Below are positions 18,771 to 27,926 of a stretch of DNA of 64,000 bases, piece by piece; position 1 is the first letter of the stretch, and each line of letters starts with the position of its first letter. The stretch is from NCBI GenBank assembly GCA_947054455.1, contig CAMRWN010000001.1:138966-202965 (forward strand). Reading direction: 5' to 3'. The position numbers and the translations under genes are program-made. The notes beneath the pieces were generated by a model that ran no database searches, had not been told where the DNA came from, and worked only from the letters and a program-made list of their open reading frames with translations. This DNA is from an uncultured Alphaproteobacteria bacterium. Its GTDB lineage: Bacteria > Pseudomonadota > Alphaproteobacteria > Rs-D84.

Positions 18771-18923
18771 GCGCTTTTTCAAAAATAATTTTAAAAAAGT
18801 TTGGCCCGGCACCCCAAAATATAGGAAAAGTCCCGGATTTCCGCCATTTTATCCTAAAAATTTTTTTTTGATTTTTTTCTTTTTTTTGTGTTTTTTTATT
18901 TCAAATCTGATTCGGAACGGGCC

Positions 18924-19022
18924 AAAAAACCGATTCTGTGGGTCAAAAAAACAGAATCGGTGCCACGATTCGTCGAAAAAACGCAATACGCATGCCAGGC
19001 GGCATCAAAATTCGCCCTATAT
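18924..19022 (-). ncRNA. Candidate small RNA upstream of the rRNA operon
   Basis: On the minus strand TTGGTT (19051-19056), 16-base spacer and TATTAT (19029-19034) predict a start near 19022. About 60 bases on comes an 11-pair perfect hairpin, ACCGATTCTGT with ACAGAATCGGT (18929-18961), followed by six T: an intrinsic terminator with no gene to end. A small ATGCC/GGCAT hairpin precedes it. No open frame of note is present. Alternatively the hairpin only insulates the rRNA promoter from upstream transcription. Confidence 0.35.
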
Positions 19023-19100
19023 ATACATATAATATGCAAAAAGGCCCCAAAACCAATTTTGTATTTTCAAAGAATGCTTTTTTATGATATGATTCGTATT

Positions 19101-20357
19101 ATGAAAACGAGAATAGCTACTTTTTCGTACCTGCTGATATTATGCGGGGCGATTCCGGCGCTGGCGTCTGAATGCACGGGCGACGGATGCAATATTGAAC
19201 AAATATCATATACGGCGGTTTCGGCGCCCGCGCCGATGGGCTATATCGCACCGGCCCCGACTGCGGCCGCCTATGCCGTACCGGTTGAATATGTATATGA
19301 AACACAAATCCCGATGCGCAGTGTCAAAACCCTGTCGATAAAGCCGGTACCCGAAGATACCCGTGCGCCCCTGTGGGACGGCACAAACGGCAATTACAAG
19401 GCGCGCGGATACGACAAAACCGTTGATTGGCGCGACGGCGTACCAATCTGGGACGATTCGATTGTCAATTATCGGGCCAAGGATTTCAGCGACTGGTTCC
19501 TGGAACCCACCCCGGAAATATATTTAAGAGAGGTTGACGCCCCCGTCGCTGCGCAAACCGTTGACATTGCGGAAATGTATGCGCAAAACATGGCCGACGC
19601 GGCCGCAACGCGCGCACGGGTCGAAGAACTGCTGGCCCCGCAGAAGCCGCAGACAAACCTGTGGACGGACGATGAAATTCAAATCACGCTGCCGGCGCCG
19701 AAACCGCAATACGCGGCCCAGGACATGACGGAAATCGTGCAAATCACATTTTCCGACGGCGACGGATGCCCGTTCGAATCGGAAACCGAATGCGAGATAT
19801 GGCGCCGCAAGCCCATTGTCCGCGAAACCGTCGCCCCGCGCAGTCCAAAAATCCGTGCGGAAAAAATGGCGGCCTTTATCGACGCGGCAAAATGCAATAA
19901 AAACATATCGGCCACCGACCCGGTTGCCGCACCACTGTTGGACAGATACAAGATGCTGATGCGGTCGGCCAACGCGTGCTGTACCGACGGGATGGCGTAT
20001 TCGCTGAAACAGGCGGGTGCGACCGACGGCCTGGTATACAAATTTATGGCGGACGACGCGAACTTTTACGGATTCGGTGCGCGTTGCCTGATGATGACGG
20101 ACACGGAACTGGATACCAAGTATCCCAACACCGCGACCGCGGCGGTTGCCGCAGACGTGCGCAACGGATGCCTGTGCCGCGGGCGCCAATGGTTCCAGGC
20201 GATGCTGGCCCCGTTTGTAGAGGCATATAACGCCGCGCCCGAATTTGCGCAGCAAAAGTTCTTTTATACATATACGGACGGCCTGCAGCGTCAGACCACG
20301 GTATCAATCAACACTGACGTCCAAAATGTGTTGAATCAGCTGGCCCTGTGTCCATAA
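19101..20357 (+). CDS. Secreted protein of unknown function
   Basis: A 418-residue protein with a signal peptide (MKTRIATF start, cleavage after A-L-A near residue 22) and cysteines at the mature N-terminus (SECTGDGC) and in the C-terminal half. Residues about 30-230 are rich in Pro, Ala and aromatic residues, with two related segments containing PLWDGT..NYKARGYDKTVDW and PIWDDS..NYRAKDFSDWF. The ordered C-terminal half contains NACCTDGMAYSLKQAG and NGCLCRGRQWFQAM. I do not recognise a family. I use the ATG at 19101 because it begins the signal peptide; a TATGAT box ends seven bases before it and no Shine-Dalgarno site is seen. It is transcribed away from the rRNA operon and ends at a terminator. 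Confidence 0.8.
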   Translation: MKTRIATFSYLLILCGAIPALASECTGDGCNIEQISYTAVSAPAPMGYIAPAPTAAAYAVPVEYVYETQIPMRSVKTLSIKPVPEDTRAPLWDGTNGNYKARGYDKTVDWRDGVPIWDDSIVNYRAKDFSDWFLEPTPEIYLREVDAPVAAQTVDIAEMYAQNMADAAATRARVEELLAPQKPQTNLWTDDEIQITLPAPKPQYAAQDMTEIVQITFSDGDGCPFESETECEIWRRKPIVRETVAPRSPKIRAEKMAAFIDAAKCNKNISATDPVAAPLLDRYKMLMRSANACCTDGMAYSLKQAGATDGLVYKFMADDANFYGFGARCLMMTDTELDTKYPNTATAAVAADVRNGCLCRGRQWFQAMLAPFVEAYNAAPEFAQQKFFYTYTDGLQRQTTVSINTDVQNVLNQLALCP

Positions 20358-20626: not shown

Positions 20627-20789
20627 CTGGATTGCGTCGCTGCGCTCGCAATGACAAAAGTGTTTAATGGCTTGGCAATTAATAACCTCTGTCATCGCGA
20701 GCGAAGCGTGGCGATCCAGTCAATTGATGTGCCTTGCCGCTTTACTTCTGGATTGCTTCGCTACGCTCGCAATGACAAAAGTGTTTAAC
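20627..20789. repeat. Nested palindromic repeat cluster 1
   Basis: One half element (20627-20660) and one complete element (about 20688-20784), joined by a linker related to GTTATTAATTGCC. The ends are CTGGATTGC and GCTCGCAATGACA or their complements, and the centre contains TCAATTGATGTGCCTTGCCG. The same parts recur at 21640-21770 and 24477-24714. No coding capacity is evident. Confidence 0.85.
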
Positions 20790-20800
20790 AGTCCAGCCAA

Positions 20801-21148
20801 TTAACGCAACGCCAGGCGGTCAATCAACGCGCAGACCATTGCGCGGTCAGCCGCGGACATCGTACACAGCGCGTCAACCGCCCGACGCGTATTCGCATCG
20901 TATATATCGCCGCGACCCAGCTCTGTAAACACCCCGTCAAACGGTGCATCCAGTATTTTCAAAATATTATAAAATCGCGAAACCGACATGCGGTTTTCAC
21001 CGCATTCGTATTTCTGCATTTGCTGAAATGTTATCCCCAATTGCGCGGCCAACGCCTTTTGCGACAGGCCTTGCCTGCGGCGCAATATACCGACCAGATT
21101 TCCCGCCCGTATATCAATGGCCGTGGGCCTGAATGGTTTTCCGGACAT
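20801..21148 (-). CDS. XRE-family transcriptional regulator
   Basis: A 115-residue regulator. Residues about 15-70 form a classic helix-turn-helix: GILRRRQGLSQKALAAQLG, TFQQMQKYECGENRMS, and FYNILKILDAP. The Q-K-Y-E variant is common in alphaproteobacterial XRE regulators. The C-terminal 45 residues (RRAVDALCTMSAADRAMVCALI) look helical and may dimerise. I choose the ATG at 21148, which has GGGGGGA four bases upstream, over the one four codons earlier. It starts 22 bases after the terminator of a candidate RNA on the same strand, so its expression may depend on readthrough or on a weak internal promoter (TTGTTT, 16 bases, TAGAAT). Confidence 0.88.
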   Translation of the reverse strand: MSGKPFRPTAIDIRAGNLVGILRRRQGLSQKALAAQLGITFQQMQKYECGENRMSVSRFYNILKILDAPFDGVFTELGRGDIYDANTRRAVDALCTMSAADRAMVCALIDRLALR

Positions 21149-21170
21149 GCATCCCCCCATGTTGTCTTAA

Positions 21171-21204
21171 ACAAAAAACCACCGGAAATTAATTCTAGGT
21201 GGTT
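21171..21204 (-). terminator. Terminator of candidate RNA 2
   Basis: AACCACC (minus strand 21204-21198) and GGTGGTT (21183-21177) pair around a 14-base loop, followed by TTTT. The same 15 bases, GGTGGTTTTTTGTTT, occur again at 21606-21620. Confidence 0.7.
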
Positions 21205-21356
21205 GGAGGTTCAAAACAATCCAAGAGAATTGCCTGGTGCCTTCGATATATAACACCAGCCTCCAACCATGCTGGTTGAAGTTGCGCCTGCGCCTGCCTC
21301 AGGCGCACTCTTGGAGAGGTTTTGAAGCCTCACATTCGCAATGGGATACGAATTAT
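21171..21356 (-). ncRNA. Candidate structured RNA 2 (about 186 bases)
   Basis: A promoter (21363-21390) and a terminator (21171-21204) bracket a region with no convincing open frame. On the minus strand a closing helix pairs 21319-21331 with 21206-21217 (one bulge), continued by CCAAGAG/CTCTTGG (21308-21314 with 21221-21227). It encloses three hairpins: TGCGCCTG/CAGGCGCA (21289-21307), CTTCAACCA/TGGTTGGAG (21261-21281) and CTGGTG/CACCAG (21234-21259). I do not see the signatures of 6S, tmRNA, RNase P or SRP RNA. It precedes an XRE regulator gene, so a cis-acting leader is the main alternative. Confidence 0.55.
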
Positions 21357-21362
21357 GCGTTT

Positions 21363-21390
21363 ATTATATCCCACCATTTGAAAAAATCAA
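21363..21390 (-). promoter_or_regulatory. Predicted promoter of candidate RNA 2
   Basis: TTGATT (21385-21390), 16-base spacer and TATAAT (21363-21368) on the minus strand; start predicted near 21356. Confidence 0.65.
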
Positions 21391-21395
21391 ACGGT

Positions 21396-21427
21396 AAAAT
21401 AAAACCCGCCGTCAAAGACAAAGCGGG
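21396..21427 (-). terminator. Terminator of candidate RNA 1
   Basis: CCCGC (minus strand 21427-21423) and GCGGG (21409-21405) pair around a loop that has a small GTC/GAC stem, followed by TTTTATTTT. Confidence 0.6.
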
Positions 21428-21572
21428 ACTGGAGCTAACAAATGCACAGCAAGATGCACGTGGTTTATTGAATATTCACCACCATCCAGTCCCATTGGAC
21501 TGGTATGTTTGTCGCACATACAGGCGCTTGCTGTGCGGGTTTGTTAGGCCCGCATAATGGTTTTCCATTACA
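21396..21572 (-). ncRNA. Candidate structured RNA 1 (about 177 bases)
   Basis: Also bracketed by its own promoter (21579-21607) and terminator (21396-21427). A ten-pair helix joins GCACAGCAAG (21536-21527) to CTTGCTGTGC (21453-21444) and encloses three hairpins at 21503-21521, 21486-21503 (CCAGTCC/GGACTGG) and 21460-21482. Two hairpins precede the helix. The loop of the second (CCTAACAAA, within 21535-21553) is complementary over eight bases to TTTGTTAG at 21442-21435, predicting a pseudoknot. TCCAGTCCC just before the terminator could pair with GGGACTGGA inside, competing with the terminator. I recognise no known family. Confidence 0.55.
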
Positions 21573-21578
21573 ACAGGC

Positions 21579-21607
21579 ATTATATCTCAGAATATATAGA
21601 ATTGCAA
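21579..21607 (-). promoter_or_regulatory. Predicted promoter of candidate RNA 1
   Basis: TTGCAA (21602-21607), 17-base spacer and TATAAT (21579-21584) on the minus strand, one of the best matches in the window; start near 21572. Confidence 0.7.
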
Positions 21608-21639: not shown

Positions 21640-21770
21640 GGTTATTAATCGCCTGGGCCATTAAACACCCTTGTCATTGCGAGGGAGCATATGCGACCGC
21701 GGCAATCCAGAAGTAAAGTGGCAAGGTACATCAATTGACTGGATTGCTTCGCTACGCTCGCAATGACAGA
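21640..21770. repeat. Nested palindromic repeat cluster 2
   Basis: A linker (GGTTATTAATCGCCTGGGCC) followed by one complete element from CTTGTCATTGCGAGGG to GCTCGCAATGACAGAGG. The inner sequence AAGTAAAGTGGCAAGG and CATCAATTGACTGGATTG matches clusters 1 and 3. Confidence 0.85.
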
Positions 21771-21832
21771 GGAGATGAAGAGAGTGTATCGCCAAATGCT
21801 TATAGCGCGCGCGGCGTTAGCTGTCGGCAAAT

Positions 21833-21869: not shown

Positions 21870-22625
21870 TCATTGTTTTTGTGTCTGCTGTTTTTGTCGT
21901 TGCTGTTCGGCGGCATATCTGGCCAATTGAACATTTAATTGCTGGGCACATTGCAGGATTGTATCACGCTTGCTGGCGCTCATCGTATTACATGCCGTTA
22001 TTGTTTGCCATTTGTCGTTCTCCTTGGTTATTACCCCCCAAGTATTCGCAACATCCAAGTCTTTTAACAATTGCTTGCGCGCATCACTGGAATTGCCGCT
22101 GTTGATTGCGTTTATAACGATTCTGACATTCGACTGCATACAATCAATCGCAGCCTCAGGCGTCCCCATCAGCATACAATTCTGGGTCCCGGCCAAAACG
22201 ATATTCTTGTCCTTGGATACAGAACCACCCACAGATGCCGCCCCCGTCGTGCCGGTCGACGCACCCGCCATTTGCAGCTTGCTGGTCAAAACCGCCTTTT
22301 CCAATTGCGTCTTGAAACGCTTTATCATTGCGTCCATGTATTCGTATTGTTTGTACATCTGCTGTGTTATAACCGTGGTTTTCAGTGCGACAACATCCTG
22401 CATCAACTGTTTCTGGGCGGCATCGTCGGGATTATGGCTTTGGCCGATGTTATATGCATGCACTGTGCACAGCGCCAATTCCGGCGTGATTCGGTCGTTT
22501 TTTTCATCATTGCAACCGTAATTGGTCAGCGCATGCGCCGAACCACACGCGGCCGCCATAAAAAGCACGGCACCCGCAATGCAGAACCTGCCCAGTTTCA
22601 AACCATGATTACAAATCAACGCCAT
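21870..22625 (-). CDS. Secreted or membrane-anchored protein of unknown function
   Basis: A 251-residue protein. The N-terminus has a hydrophobic segment (CIAGAVLFMAAACGSAHA) that could be a signal peptide cleaved after A-H-A near residue 33, or a lipobox at AAAC. The mature part starts with a cysteine-bearing NYGCNDEKNDRITPELALC, is helical, contains a Gly/Ser/Thr linker (GASTGTTGAASVGGSVS) and ends in a Gln/Lys-rich tail. I recognise no family. The ATG overlaps the upstream stop as TAATG, so translation is probably coupled to the 22625-24406 gene, and the two products may act together. A terminator follows. Confidence 0.8.
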   Translation of the reverse strand: MALICNHGLKLGRFCIAGAVLFMAAACGSAHALTNYGCNDEKNDRITPELALCTVHAYNIGQSHNPDDAAQKQLMQDVVALKTTVITQQMYKQYEYMDAMIKRFKTQLEKAVLTSKLQMAGASTGTTGAASVGGSVSKDKNIVLAGTQNCMLMGTPEAAIDCMQSNVRIVINAINSGNSSDARKQLLKDLDVANTWGVITKENDKWQTITACNTMSASKRDTILQCAQQLNVQLARYAAEQQRQKQQTQKQ

Positions 22626-24406
22626 TATTTTTTGCCCCCGCTGACACACCTGAAATCGGTATTATCCCAGGTTTCATTTGACTCGCATATACATTTACCA
22701 GAGCTCCATGTTGCACCCGCGCGGTCGCATGTACATTGAGCATAACTGGTATAAGGCTTATCCCCCCCCGCCAATGGAAATAATTTGGACCACTCATGGC
22801 ACTGGCGTGCGATACTGTCGACATATGCGGTACCCGTGTCGCCGGAAACCAACATACCTTCGTTATCCAAAATTTGAATCAGACGTCCGTCCGGCACGCA
22901 TATCTGGGTCGGCAAAGATTTCAGGTTGACGATTTTTTCCAAATCCTGGTACATGTTCGGGCCGACATTGCAATATTTTATTCCGTCGGGGTTGGGCTTG
23001 CTGGACGTGCCGAAGCGCGTACCGTACGTCTGGGGCGCGTCCTGGGCGATTATGTTTCGCAGGATATCGATATCTATGTTCGCCTGCTTTTTTCTGCCGC
23101 TGAAAAATGCGGATGTTTCCAATGCCGCCGACGCGCATCCGATGCGTATCATCGTGTCGTCGCCCGTTTCCGGTTCCAACCATTCGCGGCGGACGGTATC
23201 CGCCTCGGCATCGGTCAGTGTCTTGACCAATGTGCAGGACGGGCTGTCTTCGACCGGAATCGCCTGGCCGTAGACACATTCATGCCCCCCGCGGGTTGCA
23301 CCGCCATAAATTGCCTCGCCATTGCTTTTGTGGCCAACAGCGGAATATGCTATTGATTTACCGTTTGGACAGTTGTCGGTAGAGTATCTGCCCAGATTTC
23401 CGGTACCAGTACAAACATACTGTCCCCAGACATTACAGCTGCCGTTAAGCATCATATAGATATCGGTGATATCCACACCCACCGACTGCGCCAGCACCAA
23501 GGCATCATACAATTCATCCAAAATCGTTTCATACGGGTCAAAGAATTCCAACGCACGCTGCTTAAAAACCTTGACGCGTTTCGGCCCCAGGCAATCGTTG
23601 CCGCGCGTGTCGCATCGCGCGTACTGGAACACGTTCTGCATTGTGGCATTCAGTGTTTTCAATGACACTTCGGCATTTTCAATACTGCTTAGAATCTGGC
23701 CGGCAACCTGTTCGCGCGCCAAAACGTCGTCGGAAACACCGCGCATTGCGGCCGCGGACTGCGTCGCGCTTAGCCCGTCAATCGTCAACACCGCATTCGG
23801 GTCCGCCACCGTCGCCGCAGCCGCAGCGTTTTGCGCGGCGGCATCCGCAATTGCCTGGGCGGTTTGTTGCTGCTGGGCGGCCAATGCGCTTTGCAGTTGG
23901 GCAACCGTCTCTGCATTTTGGGCGGCCATTTGTGATTGCATCTGCTGCATTTGCTGCTGCATCTGTTGAATTTGCGCGGCACTTTGCGCGGCGGCGTTCT
24001 GGGCGGCCGCATTCTGCATGGCGGCGGCCTGTTCATTGGCGCGCGCCGCGGCGCCGGACACCAGCTGGGCCGAAATATATTCAATCAAATCGTCGCCGTA
24101 TTGCTTGCACGATGCGTTTGACTGAACACACCCGGAAACAATCGGGCGCGCAACATCCATCGACGTGCATCCGGCACACTTTGGCTGCGCACAGCGCAAT
24201 ATCAGTGCATTACAGTTGCCGAAATCGGCCGCCGCCGGTGTGGTGCGACTGTTCATCAAACTGTTCCAGTTATTATTGTCGCGTGCGCCGGACGCCCCGT
24301 TGTACGCGGTAAGATTACTGCCGGCCGTTGTCGCAACAACCGCATGGGCGCCGCCAAACGGCACCAGCAACAAAGCCATGGCCAAAAAACGTGTCAGTGA
24401 TTTCAT
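22625..24406 (-). CDS. Secreted cysteine-containing protein with Ala/Gln-rich coiled coil
   Basis: A 593-residue protein with a signal peptide (residues 1-22, A-H-A). A short cysteine-rich segment follows (NALILRCAQPKCAGCTSMD). Residues about 120-205 are almost entirely Ala, Gln, Met and Asn with heptad-like spacing, a likely coiled coil. The C-terminal half carries about fifteen cysteines, including CNVWGQYVC and the closing CTCDRAGATWSSGKCICESNE, which resembles an EGF-like disulphide knot. An AGAGAG site supports the ATG. It begins a two-gene unit with the overlapping 21870-22625 gene. No family is recognised; a cell-surface or envelope-spanning filament is one possibility, unproven. Confidence 0.82.
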   Translation of the reverse strand: MKSLTRFLAMALLLVPFGGAHAVVATTAGSNLTAYNGASGARDNNNWNSLMNSRTTPAAADFGNCNALILRCAQPKCAGCTSMDVARPIVSGCVQSNASCKQYGDDLIEYISAQLVSGAAARANEQAAAMQNAAAQNAAAQSAAQIQQMQQQMQQMQSQMAAQNAETVAQLQSALAAQQQQTAQAIADAAAQNAAAAATVADPNAVLTIDGLSATQSAAAMRGVSDDVLAREQVAGQILSSIENAEVSLKTLNATMQNVFQYARCDTRGNDCLGPKRVKVFKQRALEFFDPYETILDELYDALVLAQSVGVDITDIYMMLNGSCNVWGQYVCTGTGNLGRYSTDNCPNGKSIAYSAVGHKSNGEAIYGGATRGGHECVYGQAIPVEDSPSCTLVKTLTDAEADTVRREWLEPETGDDTMIRIGCASAALETSAFFSGRKKQANIDIDILRNIIAQDAPQTYGTRFGTSSKPNPDGIKYCNVGPNMYQDLEKIVNLKSLPTQICVPDGRLIQILDNEGMLVSGDTGTAYVDSIARQCHEWSKLFPLAGGDKPYTSYAQCTCDRAGATWSSGKCICESNETWDNTDFRCVSGGKK

Positions 24407-24476
24407 ATTCTCTCTTGTTTTTTAATTTTAACATAAAAATAAAACATAGCAAAGCAAAAAGATACCGTCCGCCAAC

Positions 24477-24714
24477 TCTGGATTGCCGCGGTTGCATATG
24501 CTCCCTCGCAATGACAAGGGTTATTAATTGCCTGGCTCTTAAACACTCTTGTCATTGCGAGCGACATCGGGCCCCGCGCGAACCTGTTCGCGTGGGTGAT
24601 ACACGAAGCAATCCATAAGTAAAACGGCAAAGTGCATCAATTGAATGGATCGCCACGCTGCGCTCGCGATGACAAAGGGGATGAAGAGACTGGATTGCCA
24701 CGGTCGCGATGATA
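24477..24714. repeat. Nested palindromic repeat cluster 3
   Basis: A half element (24477-24517), the linker (GTTATTAATTGCCTGGC), a long complete element (24548-24680) with an extra GC-rich inner hairpin (GCGCGAACCTGTTCGCG), and a fragment (24689-24714). With the terminator at 24784-24807 this accounts for the 408 bases between neighbouring genes. Confidence 0.85.
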
Positions 24715-24783
24715 ATGGATATTTTTTTCGCCCGGCCCCCGCGCAAATAAATTTACGCGGCGCCCGGGCGACAACAGGCGCAA

Positions 24784-24807
24784 CAAAAAAACGCCCCGAA
24801 GGGCGTT
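24784..24807 (-). terminator. Terminator of the 24814-27900 gene
   Basis: AACGCCC, TTCG, GGGCGTT then a T run on the minus strand; the loop is a stable UUCG tetraloop. Confidence 0.9.
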
Positions 24808-24813
24808 TCAGTT

Positions 24814-27800
24814 TTAGTCCAGTCCGATACTGAATACCGTACCATAGTTTCCAGCCGGTTCACTGCCGATATAGCAGCTGATGTGTTTTCCGACGGAATC
24901 CATCCAGTCGTTGATTGTATCCTGCTTCAGCTTGTCATTCTGGCCGTCCTGGATATCCTTGGTCGCAAAGTACAGCGTCGCACCACCAGCCGCACCCAAT
25001 GCAGCCGACGACACACCAGATATCCATTTTTTCCCAGATTCCGATGAATCAGATGAAGAATCATCTTTTTCTTTGGCTTGGCATTGAAGCATCAGACGAT
25101 CCAACGCGGTCTGTGCTGCTGCTTCCGCGGTCTCCTTATTCGGATTATCATTACTCTCATACGTATCCTTCAGTGCGTTAACTGCGGTCTGTGCTGCTGT
25201 TATTATATTTACATCAACCGAAACCTTCATCGCCGCGGTAATAGCCACATCAGCATTCTGTTTGACACTGGCAGCGCTGTTACCTATATAACTCTTGGCC
25301 ATATTCGCATATTGGACGCAACGTGTTGCCTCTTTATCATCGGTGCCGCTGTCCTTCTTTAATCCGGTCAAACCGCCCAGCACGTCGCCCGTTCGGATGG
25401 ATTCGCCCAACGCCAGACCACCGGTCGCACCGCCAACCGTCCCCAGCGCGGTCATCCAATTTCTGACACGGTTCTGGGCCGCAGATTTGTCGTCAACCTT
25501 CTTTTGCGCGACATTCTCGGCAATGATGGTCAGGGCGTCGGACGGAATCCAGCTGCCACAGGTGATGGTGTCGCCCGTCGCAAAGTACGCCGTACCCCAT
25601 GTTGAATTGTTAATCGCGTTTTGAATATCGCGGTCATCCGACTGCAGTGTTACGCGAACACGGCAGAACGAACCGTACAAATCATTGCTGGCCACGAACT
25701 GGTTCGCCGACAGACCGGAAACCGTATAGTTCGACGGAACTTTGCCCGATTTCAGCTTTACCCACATATATGTGCTGCCGGTATCCTTGTTGCCCATAAC
25801 GCCGCCGTTGTTCAGGGACATGCACATGTTCTGTTCCTGGGTCAGTTTGGCGTTATATTTGGCCTGTGCCTCTTTTTCCAAGTCATAAATCAAATCCTTG
25901 AACAGGCTGCTGGCCGCCTGGGACTGTATATATGTATCATATCCGATTATTACCGGTTCGTCATATATATTGCCCGCCGCGTCGACAAAACCACATGTGT
26001 TTTGACCGGCGCCCTTTTTGGACGTGCACAGATTGTTGCCGTTTTCATCCGTTGCATAGATTTCATCCTTGGCGTCCAGTTTGGTCGCGCCGCCCGCATC
26101 AATCCAGCCGCCGCGAACGCTTGTCGCCGCCCCCCAGGATGCAGTTTTGCTTTCAGAATTTTTCAACTTGTTGCGCTCTATCGCCAAGTGTTCTTCGCAT
26201 ACGGATGCGTTTTTAACCGTATCCAGGCACAGCCCCAGCACGATTGTATAATCCAGCACACCGCCGACCTTGTTCATGGACTTGTCAAATGTGGCGGTAC
26301 CCGTATTGGTCAAATCGGAATACACGTCGGTGCGGTTGCGATAGCAGTTTGCATAATCCGTCCCGCACATCGAACGCACGCATGACGTGGCGACCGTTTG
26401 GCACTGGCGCTTCATCTGGGCGATGGCCGCAGTGCTATAGCTGGTGGCCAAGGACGAGTTCAGAGATGCCACAACCCCAATCGGATCGGTTGCCGTATCA
26501 TCATATTCCGGGAACAGCGTATCAAACGCATCGCCGGCGATATATGCATAAGAATACGTGCCGACGCCCGACGGATTGGCCGCCGCATACTGACAGTTTG
26601 CATCCGTGTTTACAACCGCCGCGCAACCCGTCTTGATATCTTCGCGTGTATTTTTGTTGTTGATGGACCGGCTGGCGTCGTCAAACACCTCTTTATAACA
26701 GGCCGCGCCACTGCCGCCACCGCATACGCGCATTGCGCATGCCGTAATTGTCTCGCTGCACTTGGTCTTGGCACGAGTATCGAACTTTTCAACCAGTTCG
26801 CTGATTTTCGCCTTCATCGACGTGTTCATGCGGGCGGCATAAGCCTCCTGATAAATTTCATCCTGGTTGTCTTCATCGCGCAGTTGGGCGTTGGACGGCA
26901 TTTTGCCGTTTCCGATGAACGTGGCATAGCAGTATTTGTTCGACCCGATTGTATCCGCGCACTGATTTTTGATATATCCCGCGATATTCGATTTTGTCGT
27001 CGCCGATGATGCAGACACCTTTTCATCGGATACAGCATTCAAATCGCCGGCACCGATTGCCGCGGCCAGACGCGCCAATTCATCGGTTCCGTTTTCATAG
27101 CACTTGTACGGATTCGTGGCGCATGCGTTCAGTATGCACTGGTCAACGACCTTATAACATGTCGAAACCGCGTTCACGGCCGCCAAATCGGCACCTTCCT
27201 TAATCAAGTCCCGAACACGGCTGCCGGCCATGGGGGTGTTGACGGCAGACGTGCTGCCAAACAGTTCTGTCAAACCATCGCCCTGGCAACGCGCCAACGT
27301 GGAATCACAGAACACGCGCTGCTTTTTAAATTCGGTGTCGGTCGTGCAAAGTTCAAAATCGCTGCCGCAGACACTGTCCTTTTTCAAACAGGAGGTATAG
27401 CGGCGCACGCACGTAGACGTATCGTATTTATTGGTGATTGCGGCCCCGATAATCATCTGCCCCAGAACACTGCCGTCGGTGGGATAGGTGTAATCAGAAA
27501 CCTCGCCGTATGAATTTTTAGATGCGACATTCGACAATGCCGTAGTCGCGGTCGTACCAAACAGGCTGTTTATTCCGGCGGTCGAACACTGGGCCAGCGT
27601 ACTGAGACACTGGGGCATTTTGCCATGGAACAAAACCTTGGTCGTGCATTCTTCAAAATCGGTGCCACAGACGTCGCTGCCCTTCATGCATTCCGTATAC
27701 GCGTCTATGCAGTCCGTATCCTTTAGCAATGACGAAGCACTGGCCGTGCCGGATGTTGCAACATTGCTGACAGATGTTGTCATTGTCGGCATGCGGGACG

Positions 27801-27900
27801 ACACGGCACCCATGACACTGGGGCGCGCGGTCAGCGCAAACGCCGCCGGCAACACGCTGAAAACAGCCACAAAACTGATTGTTTTTGTAAAGAAATGCAT
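24814..27900 (-). CDS. Very large cysteine-rich secreted protein with repeated modules
   Basis: A 1,028-residue protein with a signal peptide (MHFFTKTISF start, A-F-A near residue 23). The ATG at 27900 has GGAG eight bases upstream; a GTG nine bases earlier is less likely. Two close copies of a six-cysteine module lie at about 64-105 and 164-205 (C-x3-Y-x2-C, then VCG-x-DFE-x-C and later two more Cys). Looser copies follow, such as CAMRVCGGG and CVRSMCGTDYANCY. Near the C-terminus two glycine-rich hydrophobic segments (about 835-865 and 965-985) could insert in a membrane. The modules recall the cysteine segments of the 7756-10248 protein, suggesting a shared family. It has its own promoter and terminator. 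No known family is recognised. Confidence 0.85.
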   Translation of the reverse strand: MHFFTKTISFVAVFSVLPAAFALTARPSVMGAVSSRMPTMTTSVSNVATSGTASASSLLKDTDCIDAYTECMKGSDVCGTDFEECTTKVLFHGKMPQCLSTLAQCSTAGINSLFGTTATTALSNVASKNSYGEVSDYTYPTDGSVLGQMIIGAAITNKYDTSTCVRRYTSCLKKDSVCGSDFELCTTDTEFKKQRVFCDSTLARCQGDGLTELFGSTSAVNTPMAGSRVRDLIKEGADLAAVNAVSTCYKVVDQCILNACATNPYKCYENGTDELARLAAAIGAGDLNAVSDEKVSASSATTKSNIAGYIKNQCADTIGSNKYCYATFIGNGKMPSNAQLRDEDNQDEIYQEAYAARMNTSMKAKISELVEKFDTRAKTKCSETITACAMRVCGGGSGAACYKEVFDDASRSINNKNTREDIKTGCAAVVNTDANCQYAAANPSGVGTYSYAYIAGDAFDTLFPEYDDTATDPIGVVASLNSSLATSYSTAAIAQMKRQCQTVATSCVRSMCGTDYANCYRNRTDVYSDLTNTGTATFDKSMNKVGGVLDYTIVLGLCLDTVKNASVCEEHLAIERNKLKNSESKTASWGAATSVRGGWIDAGGATKLDAKDEIYATDENGNNLCTSKKGAGQNTCGFVDAAGNIYDEPVIIGYDTYIQSQAASSLFKDLIYDLEKEAQAKYNAKLTQEQNMCMSLNNGGVMGNKDTGSTYMWVKLKSGKVPSNYTVSGLSANQFVASNDLYGSFCRVRVTLQSDDRDIQNAINNSTWGTAYFATGDTITCGSWIPSDALTIIAENVAQKKVDDKSAAQNRVRNWMTALGTVGGATGGLALGESIRTGDVLGGLTGLKKDSGTDDKEATRCVQYANMAKSYIGNSAASVKQNADVAITAAMKVSVDVNIITAAQTAVNALKDTYESNDNPNKETAEAAAQTALDRLMLQCQAKEKDDSSSDSSESGKKWISGVSSAALGAAGGATLYFATKDIQDGQNDKLKQDTINDWMDSVGKHISCYIGSEPAGNYGTVFSIGLD

Positions 27901-27926
27901 TCGACTCACTCCATTATTATTATTTT

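Follow-up and report, generated by a model that had tools for sequence, protein, structure and literature searches.

The window, by which we mean the whole 64,000-nt stretch of DNA analysed here, carries on its minus strand two tandem RNAs (RNA 1 and RNA 2), with a gene for an XRE-type helix-turn-helix (HTH) protein directly after RNA 2. The features of the locus, in the order of transcription, are as follows.

21602-21607, minus strand: -35 box of RNA 1, TTGCAA, 17 nt from the -10 box (promoter scan and sequence).
21579-21584, minus strand: -10 box of RNA 1, TATAAT, at the usual spot of the family, 31 nt before the model start.
21400-21572, minus strand: RNA 1, the upstream paralogue of the family; match to covariance model R2 at 21400-21553.
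21401-21427, minus strand: terminator of RNA 1, CCCGC..GCGGG (21405-21427) followed by T4; the helix covaries in the family.
21385-21390, minus strand: -35 box of RNA 2, TTGATT, 16 nt from the -10 box (promoter scan and sequence).
21363-21368, minus strand: -10 box of RNA 2, TATAAT (promoter scan and sequence).
21173-21356, minus strand: RNA 2, putative leader of the XRE gene; match to model R2 at 21173-21332.
21173-21204, minus strand: terminator of RNA 2, AACCACC..GGTGGTT followed by T6 (sequence).
20801-21160, minus strand: gene for an XRE-type HTH protein (PF01381, E 5e-7), putative target of RNA 2; start likely at 21148 or 21160, that is 12-25 nt past the T-run of RNA 2.

The first-pass annotation had placed two tandem RNAs here, each with promoter and terminator, just upstream of an XRE regulator and between palindromic repeats. 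Its coordinates on the minus strand are correct, the gene and the interspersed palindromic repeats are where it had put them, and only the T-run of the RNA 2 terminator had to be corrected, from four to six. The palindromes flanking the RNA pair (20640-20790 and 21655-21780) are imperfect, have the form CTGGATTGCTTCGCTACGCTCGCAATGAC and constitute a separate repeat family. Further out lie large, exported-looking neighbours of 489, 259, 593 and 1031 aa (18888-20357, plus strand; 21870-27909, minus strand), none of which matched a Pfam family. A 106-aa open reading frame on the plus strand was considered as a coding alternative and rejected, being at odds with the covariation and the paralogues.

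Both promoters are of the sigma-70-like type. Taken by itself, the promoter scan performs at chance level (3 promoters found versus 2.6 expected). The -10 boxes of the window are nevertheless convincing, because TATAAT-like boxes recur at the same place throughout the family, 31 to 33 nt ahead of the model start; a box between -45 and -21 is present in 186 of 214 copies, versus 76 of 214 after shuffling. Both RNAs fold, as had been claimed, into a closing helix around three hairpins, and do so far better than dinucleotide-shuffled sequences (z = -5.3 for RNA 1 and -7.0 for RNA 2). The R2 matches (E 9e-16 for RNA 1, 2e-21 for RNA 2) are not independent evidence, because copies of RNA 1 and RNA 2 itself sit in the model seed.

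Inspection of the loci by reading gave a single architecture for RNA 1 and RNA 2. In the family, the order from the 5' end is promoter, hairpin P0, hairpin A (with the 5' strand of helix Pk1 as its loop), 5' strand of helix P2, hairpins h3, h4 and h5, 3' strand of P2 flanked by the short helix P6, 3' strand of Pk1, terminator and start codon. The elements of RNA 1 are:

21555-21570, minus strand: P0, the 5' hairpin (sequence).
21535-21553, minus strand: hairpin A, GCGGG..CCCGC, with the 5' strand of Pk1 in its loop (covariation).
21540-21547, minus strand: 5' strand of Pk1, CTAACAAA, in the loop of hairpin A.
21435-21442, minus strand: 3' strand of Pk1, TTTGTTAG, partner of the hairpin A loop (covariation).
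21527-21535 and 21445-21453, minus strand: strands of P2, CACAGCAAG and CTTGCTGTG (covariation, sequence).
21486-21503, minus strand: hairpin h4, CCAGTCCAATGGGACTGG (covariation, sequence).
21485-21493 and 21425-21433, minus strand: 3' strand of h4 (h4-3'), GGGACTGGA, and its alternative, putative antiterminator partner, TCCAGTCCC (sequence, family covariation).
21460-21483, minus strand: hairpin h5, with the AAUA loop motif of the family (sequence, conservation).
21443-21458, minus strand: P6, TGCA..TGCA, enclosing the 3' strand of P2 (covariation, sequence).

Those of RNA 2 are:

21334-21353, minus strand: P0, the 5' hairpin (sequence).
21316-21333, minus strand: hairpin A; its loop contains the 5' strand of Pk1, CTTCAAAAC (21319-21327).
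21210-21217, minus strand: 3' strand of Pk1, GTTTTGAA (covariation, sequence).
21308-21315 and 21220-21227, minus strand: strands of P2, TCCAAGAG and CTCTTGGA (covariation).
21290-21306, minus strand: hairpin h3 (folding, sequence).
21261-21280, minus strand: hairpin h4 (folding, sequence).
21260-21268 and 21201-21209, minus strand: h4-3', GGTTGGAGG (also written GGUUGGAGG), and its alternative partner, CCTCCAACC, a putative antiterminator.
21234-21259, minus strand: hairpin h5 (folding, sequence).
21217-21232, minus strand: P6, CAAT..ATTG, enclosing the 3' strand of P2 (covariation, sequence).

The eight-base pseudoknot pairing proposed earlier for RNA 1, CCTAACAAA with TTTGTTAG, is real and supported by covariation. 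It is Pk1, the outermost closing helix of RNA 1, and is also present in RNA 2 (CTTCAAAAC with GTTTTGAA). Because the 5' strand sits in the loop of a short GGG/CCC hairpin, Pk1 is a pseudoknot if both helices form.

Judged from their sequences, RNA 1 and RNA 2 are paralogous members of one large RNA family, arranged in tandem. DNA searches of the same genome found two further whole copies of the RNA 1-RNA 2 cassette (79-83% identity) and several more of the 3' half of RNA 2, which also recurs many times per genome across the genus. A covariance model (R1) built from 25 seeds of the first loci, both window RNAs among them, detected 25 copies at E<1e-7 in the 0.73 Mb assembly of the window genome (Ca. 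Enterousia, order Rs-D84) and matched 37 of 39 genomes of the genus, with a maximum of 54 copies each. Enterousia is a reduced-genome lineage of this order (PMC12306168). Model R2 recognized the family in 108 of the 114 Rs-D84 genomes and, in a sample of the class Alphaproteobacteria, in 21 of 276 genera, whose genomes all measure at most about 2.2 Mb; per-genome copy numbers from the order, class and phylum searches are "at least" values. In a phylum sample of 398 genomes, matches were confined to two, both of the genus of the window, and the other 396 had no copy, so false positives must be rare. Named records with the exact core motif belong to Ca. Enterousia or to other uncultured Alphaproteobacteria or Rickettsiales metagenome-assembled genomes (MAGs), and many are titled as ruminant or other animal gut samples. 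The RNA also occurs on three IMG/VR contigs (L221 12039-12194, L222 8459-8614, L223 787-942); in L221 it adjoins a contractile-tail prophage (tail sheath, tape measure), probably with host flank.

Single copies are the rule, with arrays of two to six also present. The suspected undescribed RNA system has thus to be split: a new RNA is supported, and a special two-RNA unit working with the regulator is not, the RNAs being paralogues from a large family that usually occurs singly. Tandem arrays were seen in L198 3937-5044 (minus strand, five units), L210 99-1399 (minus strand, six) and L218 6432-7294 (minus strand, four). Within the L198 array, flanks and promoters are near-identical from unit to unit, Pk1 and P2 have been exchanged among units with compensation, and any two units differ in at least one of these helices.

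Compensatory change among homologues, on which the first-pass annotation had staked its proposal, is strong, and all helices covary. Among 99 distinct rows from the order Rs-D84 and about 15 other families, 94.3% of the cells of the nested structure are standard pairs and 38 of 39 pairs have changed on both sides; an earlier set of 116 rows agrees. The covariation score was 0.686, versus 0.206 for shuffled and at most 0.109 for slid controls, with the reservation that shuffle controls overstate significance because the alignment rows are related. The alignments (A2, A3, A5 and A6) were fitted to a model with the main helices, outside of which are the alternative helix described below, hairpin A and P6. 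Pairs outside the model covary as well, namely hairpin A, P6 and a long-range pair (6-94), and so does the terminator helix in the family alignment. Apart from compensated changes in Pk1 and P2, two orthologous leaders (L109 and L215) are near-identical, in contrast to their diverging coding sequence. In h5, the AAUA shows about 95-100% conservation among close and distant copies alike; as a conserved unpaired motif it is at most suggestive of ligand binding.

A tRNA-like anticodon loop in hairpin A (U-NNN-AA) was entertained and dropped, as positions 12-14 also change with compensation. Separately, in several distant loci (L103, L106, L236-L239 and others) the P0 loop (UGAUG-like) and the terminator loop (CAUCA-like) are complementary to each other, with covarying versions such as UGGCG and CGCCA in L237, a possible kissing contact between the 5' and 3' ends. 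In Enterousia, where the P0 loop is a recurrent G-N-R-U-U pentaloop, no such kissing was apparent (6.00 observed versus 6.03 with loops re-dealt).

The family has a second, alternative pairing. The h4-3' strand can form a 9-bp helix with the stretch that separates Pk1 from the terminator, taking in 2-4 nt of the terminator stem. Although absent from the model, this helix is paired in 97.4% of cells and has a covariation score of 0.371, versus 0.161 for shuffled (again with related rows) and at most 0.098 for slid controls. Covariation thus links h4-3' to two partners, one within its own hairpin and one in the 5' flank of the terminator; the terminator strand, in turn, can take either h4-3' or its own 3' arm as partner. 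Position 62 covaries with 53 (h4) and 124 (alternative helix), 124 with 62 and 145 (terminator), 63 with 52 and 123, and 67 with 48 and 119. Covariation of single positions with two partners each is the trace expected of a strand exchange between antiterminator and terminator. In RNA 2 all pairs can form (h4 8/8, alternative helix 9/9, terminator 7/7). For RNA 1 the alternative helix (GGGACTGGA with TCCAGTCCC) was taken straight from the sequence, because the alignment misplaces it and shows only 5/8 pairs. Distant copies retain the alternative helix (for example, GGCAGGAAG with CTTCCTGCC, GACTGGAAG with CTTCCAGTC, and GGGCGGATT with AATCCGCCC), even those with a poor 5' strand of h4.

The number of partners also accounts for the pattern of conservation. 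The h4-3' strand and the terminator flank, with two partners each, are the most conserved helix sequences, whereas Pk1 and P2 vary freely with compensation because their strands have one partner each. An orthogonality specific to tandem copies, considered as an explanation for the variable Pk1 and P2, is unnecessary, since one-partner strands drift and two-partner strands cannot. Mutually exclusive pairings that involve the terminator strand, as would be expected of a transcription-attenuating cis-regulatory RNA, thus have evolutionary support.

The position of the copies points in the same direction. According to a simple ORF heuristic, the next gene is on the same strand for 84 and on the opposite strand for 20 of 104 classifiable copies (binomial p 2e-10); 9 further copies are followed by another copy. 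For 70 of the 84 copies with a same-strand gene (70/104 of the classifiable copies), no more than 60 nt, mostly 20-35 nt, separate the T-run from the gene start, and among distant copies the downstream genes that could be read mostly begin 13-32 nt past the RNA. An intrinsic terminator thus lies close upstream of a same-strand start codon, the arrangement of an attenuator, and as the gap is too short for a second promoter, the gene must depend on read-through. About one copy in six is without a close same-strand gene behind it.

Targets are enriched for exported or membrane proteins and small XRE regulators, as in the window. Signal-peptide or membrane N-termini were assigned heuristically to 41 of 70 targets versus 218 of 758 background ORFs (p 1e-6), and 14 of 66 targets match an HTH family. 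Distant targets, named by sequence inspection, comprise lipoproteins, outer-membrane-like proteins, a pilin-like protein and an XRE protein. The XRE gene of the window is most likely a regulated target of RNA 2 and not a partner, because the family usually precedes a gene, which is not an HTH gene for about four fifths of targets. In one locus (L119 3349-5655), a leader copy lies 23 nt ahead of a GmrSD-type (DUF262) restriction gene, so that a defence gene may also be under leader control.

In several gene-less copies of the window genome, the RNA is followed by a second hairpin (L078 1683-1700; L081 1470-1486, minus strand; L086 1467-1484, minus strand; L089 1699-1716; L093 1467-1483, minus strand). 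Its stem is variable and its loop, CTCATCTCCACA(C)AACCAC, near-constant; this loop is similar to the terminator's 5' flank and could base-pair with the 3' arm of the terminator. This hairpin is absent from the window.

Together, a structured family with two alternative covarying pairings and a position before genes probably represents an undescribed class of cis-acting 5' leader RNA that acts by transcription attenuation of the next gene. The transcript would start right before P0 and fold into a pseudoknotted domain of A, Pk1, P2, h3, h4, h5 and P6 before the polymerase reaches the terminator, 10-35 nt ahead of the start codon. OFF would correspond to formation of h4 and the terminator. In the ON fold, h4-3' would exchange its hairpin for a 9-bp helix with the terminator's 5' flank, and the loss of 2-4 nt from the terminator stem would allow read-through into the gene. 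We infer that the two pairings are the ON and OFF states, with the choice made by a signal, be it a metabolite, an ion or a protein. Nested folding energies favour OFF by a mean of about 13 kcal/mol, a comparison that leaves pseudoknotted ON folds outside the scoring. The best reading is that the leader would be terminated by default and switched to read-through via the alternative helix. RNA 2 would then control the XRE regulator, and RNA 1, equipped with a promoter and terminator of its own, would be a tandem copy lying upstream.

The signal might be a dedicated RNA-binding antitermination protein, recognizing P0 or the AAUA loop of h5, instead of a small ligand. This special case of attenuation is possible, if rather unlikely: the 5' position of P0, its recurrent pentaloop in Enterousia and the near-invariant AAUA would all suit a protein, yet no candidate was found, and each of 13 genomes has a single NusG-family match.

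It is improbable that the copies are stand-alone small RNAs, trans-acting or protein-binding, that end at ~180 nt, with incidental read-through downstream. Every copy has its own promoter and terminator, arrays contain up to six self-contained units, and some copies have no gene behind them. Set against this, the placement 20-35 nt before start codons is tight and leaves no room for a second promoter, and a plain small RNA needs no conserved second partner for its terminator flank. Still, the self-promoted tandem units and the copies without a close same-strand gene do speak against a pure leader model, and they suggest a separate function for some terminated leaders. RNA 1 may be one of these, or it may serve as a second gate upstream.

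A mobile or selfish MITE-like repeat, inserting upstream of genes and structured by chance, would account for up to 54 copies per genome, tandem duplication and nearby interspersed palindromic repeats, but is very improbable for copies that are strongly diverged yet compensated, conserved across families, in register with the downstream start codon and, as orthologous leaders, better conserved than the adjoining coding sequence.

Returning to attenuation, a wider proposal can be put forward tentatively, namely that the family is at once a new riboswitch class, perhaps for a new signal, the basis of a surface and regulator regulon, and a source of some trans-acting copies. In genomes below about 1 Mb, the regulon would take in as much as roughly 5% of the genes, the two sequence-free helices would diversify quickly, and self-promoted, gene-less or tandem copies would partly act in trans as terminated RNAs. 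As a leader class, the family would be a main regulator of surface display in these uncultured bacteria. RNA leader classes with tens of copies per genome are few, and this family is among them, in gut bacteria whose DNA amounts to about 1 Mb or less and which have no detectable GGDEF proteins. Owing to the covariation of the alternative pairing, the switch can be tested directly in vitro with no culture of the organism; the signal offers ligand discovery a concrete target; and the covariance model allows annotation in MAGs of regions that otherwise pass for plain intergenic DNA.

Searches with Rfam 15 covariance models, the check that had been suggested, gave no match at gathering score and nothing credible at permissive thresholds (best match in the region snR68, E 0.25, 21.9 bits versus a cut-off of 80), in agreement with the earlier statement that signatures of 6S, tmRNA, RNase P and SRP RNA are lacking. 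No earlier description of the family was found in a literature search of incomplete coverage.

Type III toxin-antitoxin RNAs (ToxI) consist of a pseudoknotted RNA and a terminator followed by a gene. The same succession is seen here, but the family has no short tandem repeat units within the RNA, and its downstream genes are diverse, mostly encoding exported proteins or HTH regulators. In RfaH/LoaP-type processive antitermination, leader elements also lie ahead of surface genes; the present family differs by a complete terminator and switch inside the leader. We found one NusG match in each of the 13 genomes and not the additional paralogue on which LoaP- or RfaH-dependent leaders rely, and with a single NusG per genome such a mechanism is unlikely.

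T-box leaders occur in many copies per genome and exchange terminator and antiterminator, as the present family appears to do. It has no T-box match in Rfam, however, and its targets are not aminoacyl-tRNA genes, the sole target of this type being one TyrRS gene 99 nt away. The c-di-GMP riboswitches (GEMM-I/II) likewise have many copies per genome, some in tandem, and control surface proteins and regulators. The family resembles them in all three respects and differs in lacking a GEMM match in Rfam and in having hosts without GGDEF proteins, none of which were found in 20 genomes of the genus; because GGDEF domains are absent, c-di-GMP made by the cell is unlikely as a trigger. With transcription-terminating riboswitches, finally, the family, although without a match in Rfam 15, shares a pseudoknotted 5' leader, a core that is conserved and unpaired, a terminator strand that alternative pairing either releases or sequesters, and a gene start soon after the terminator.
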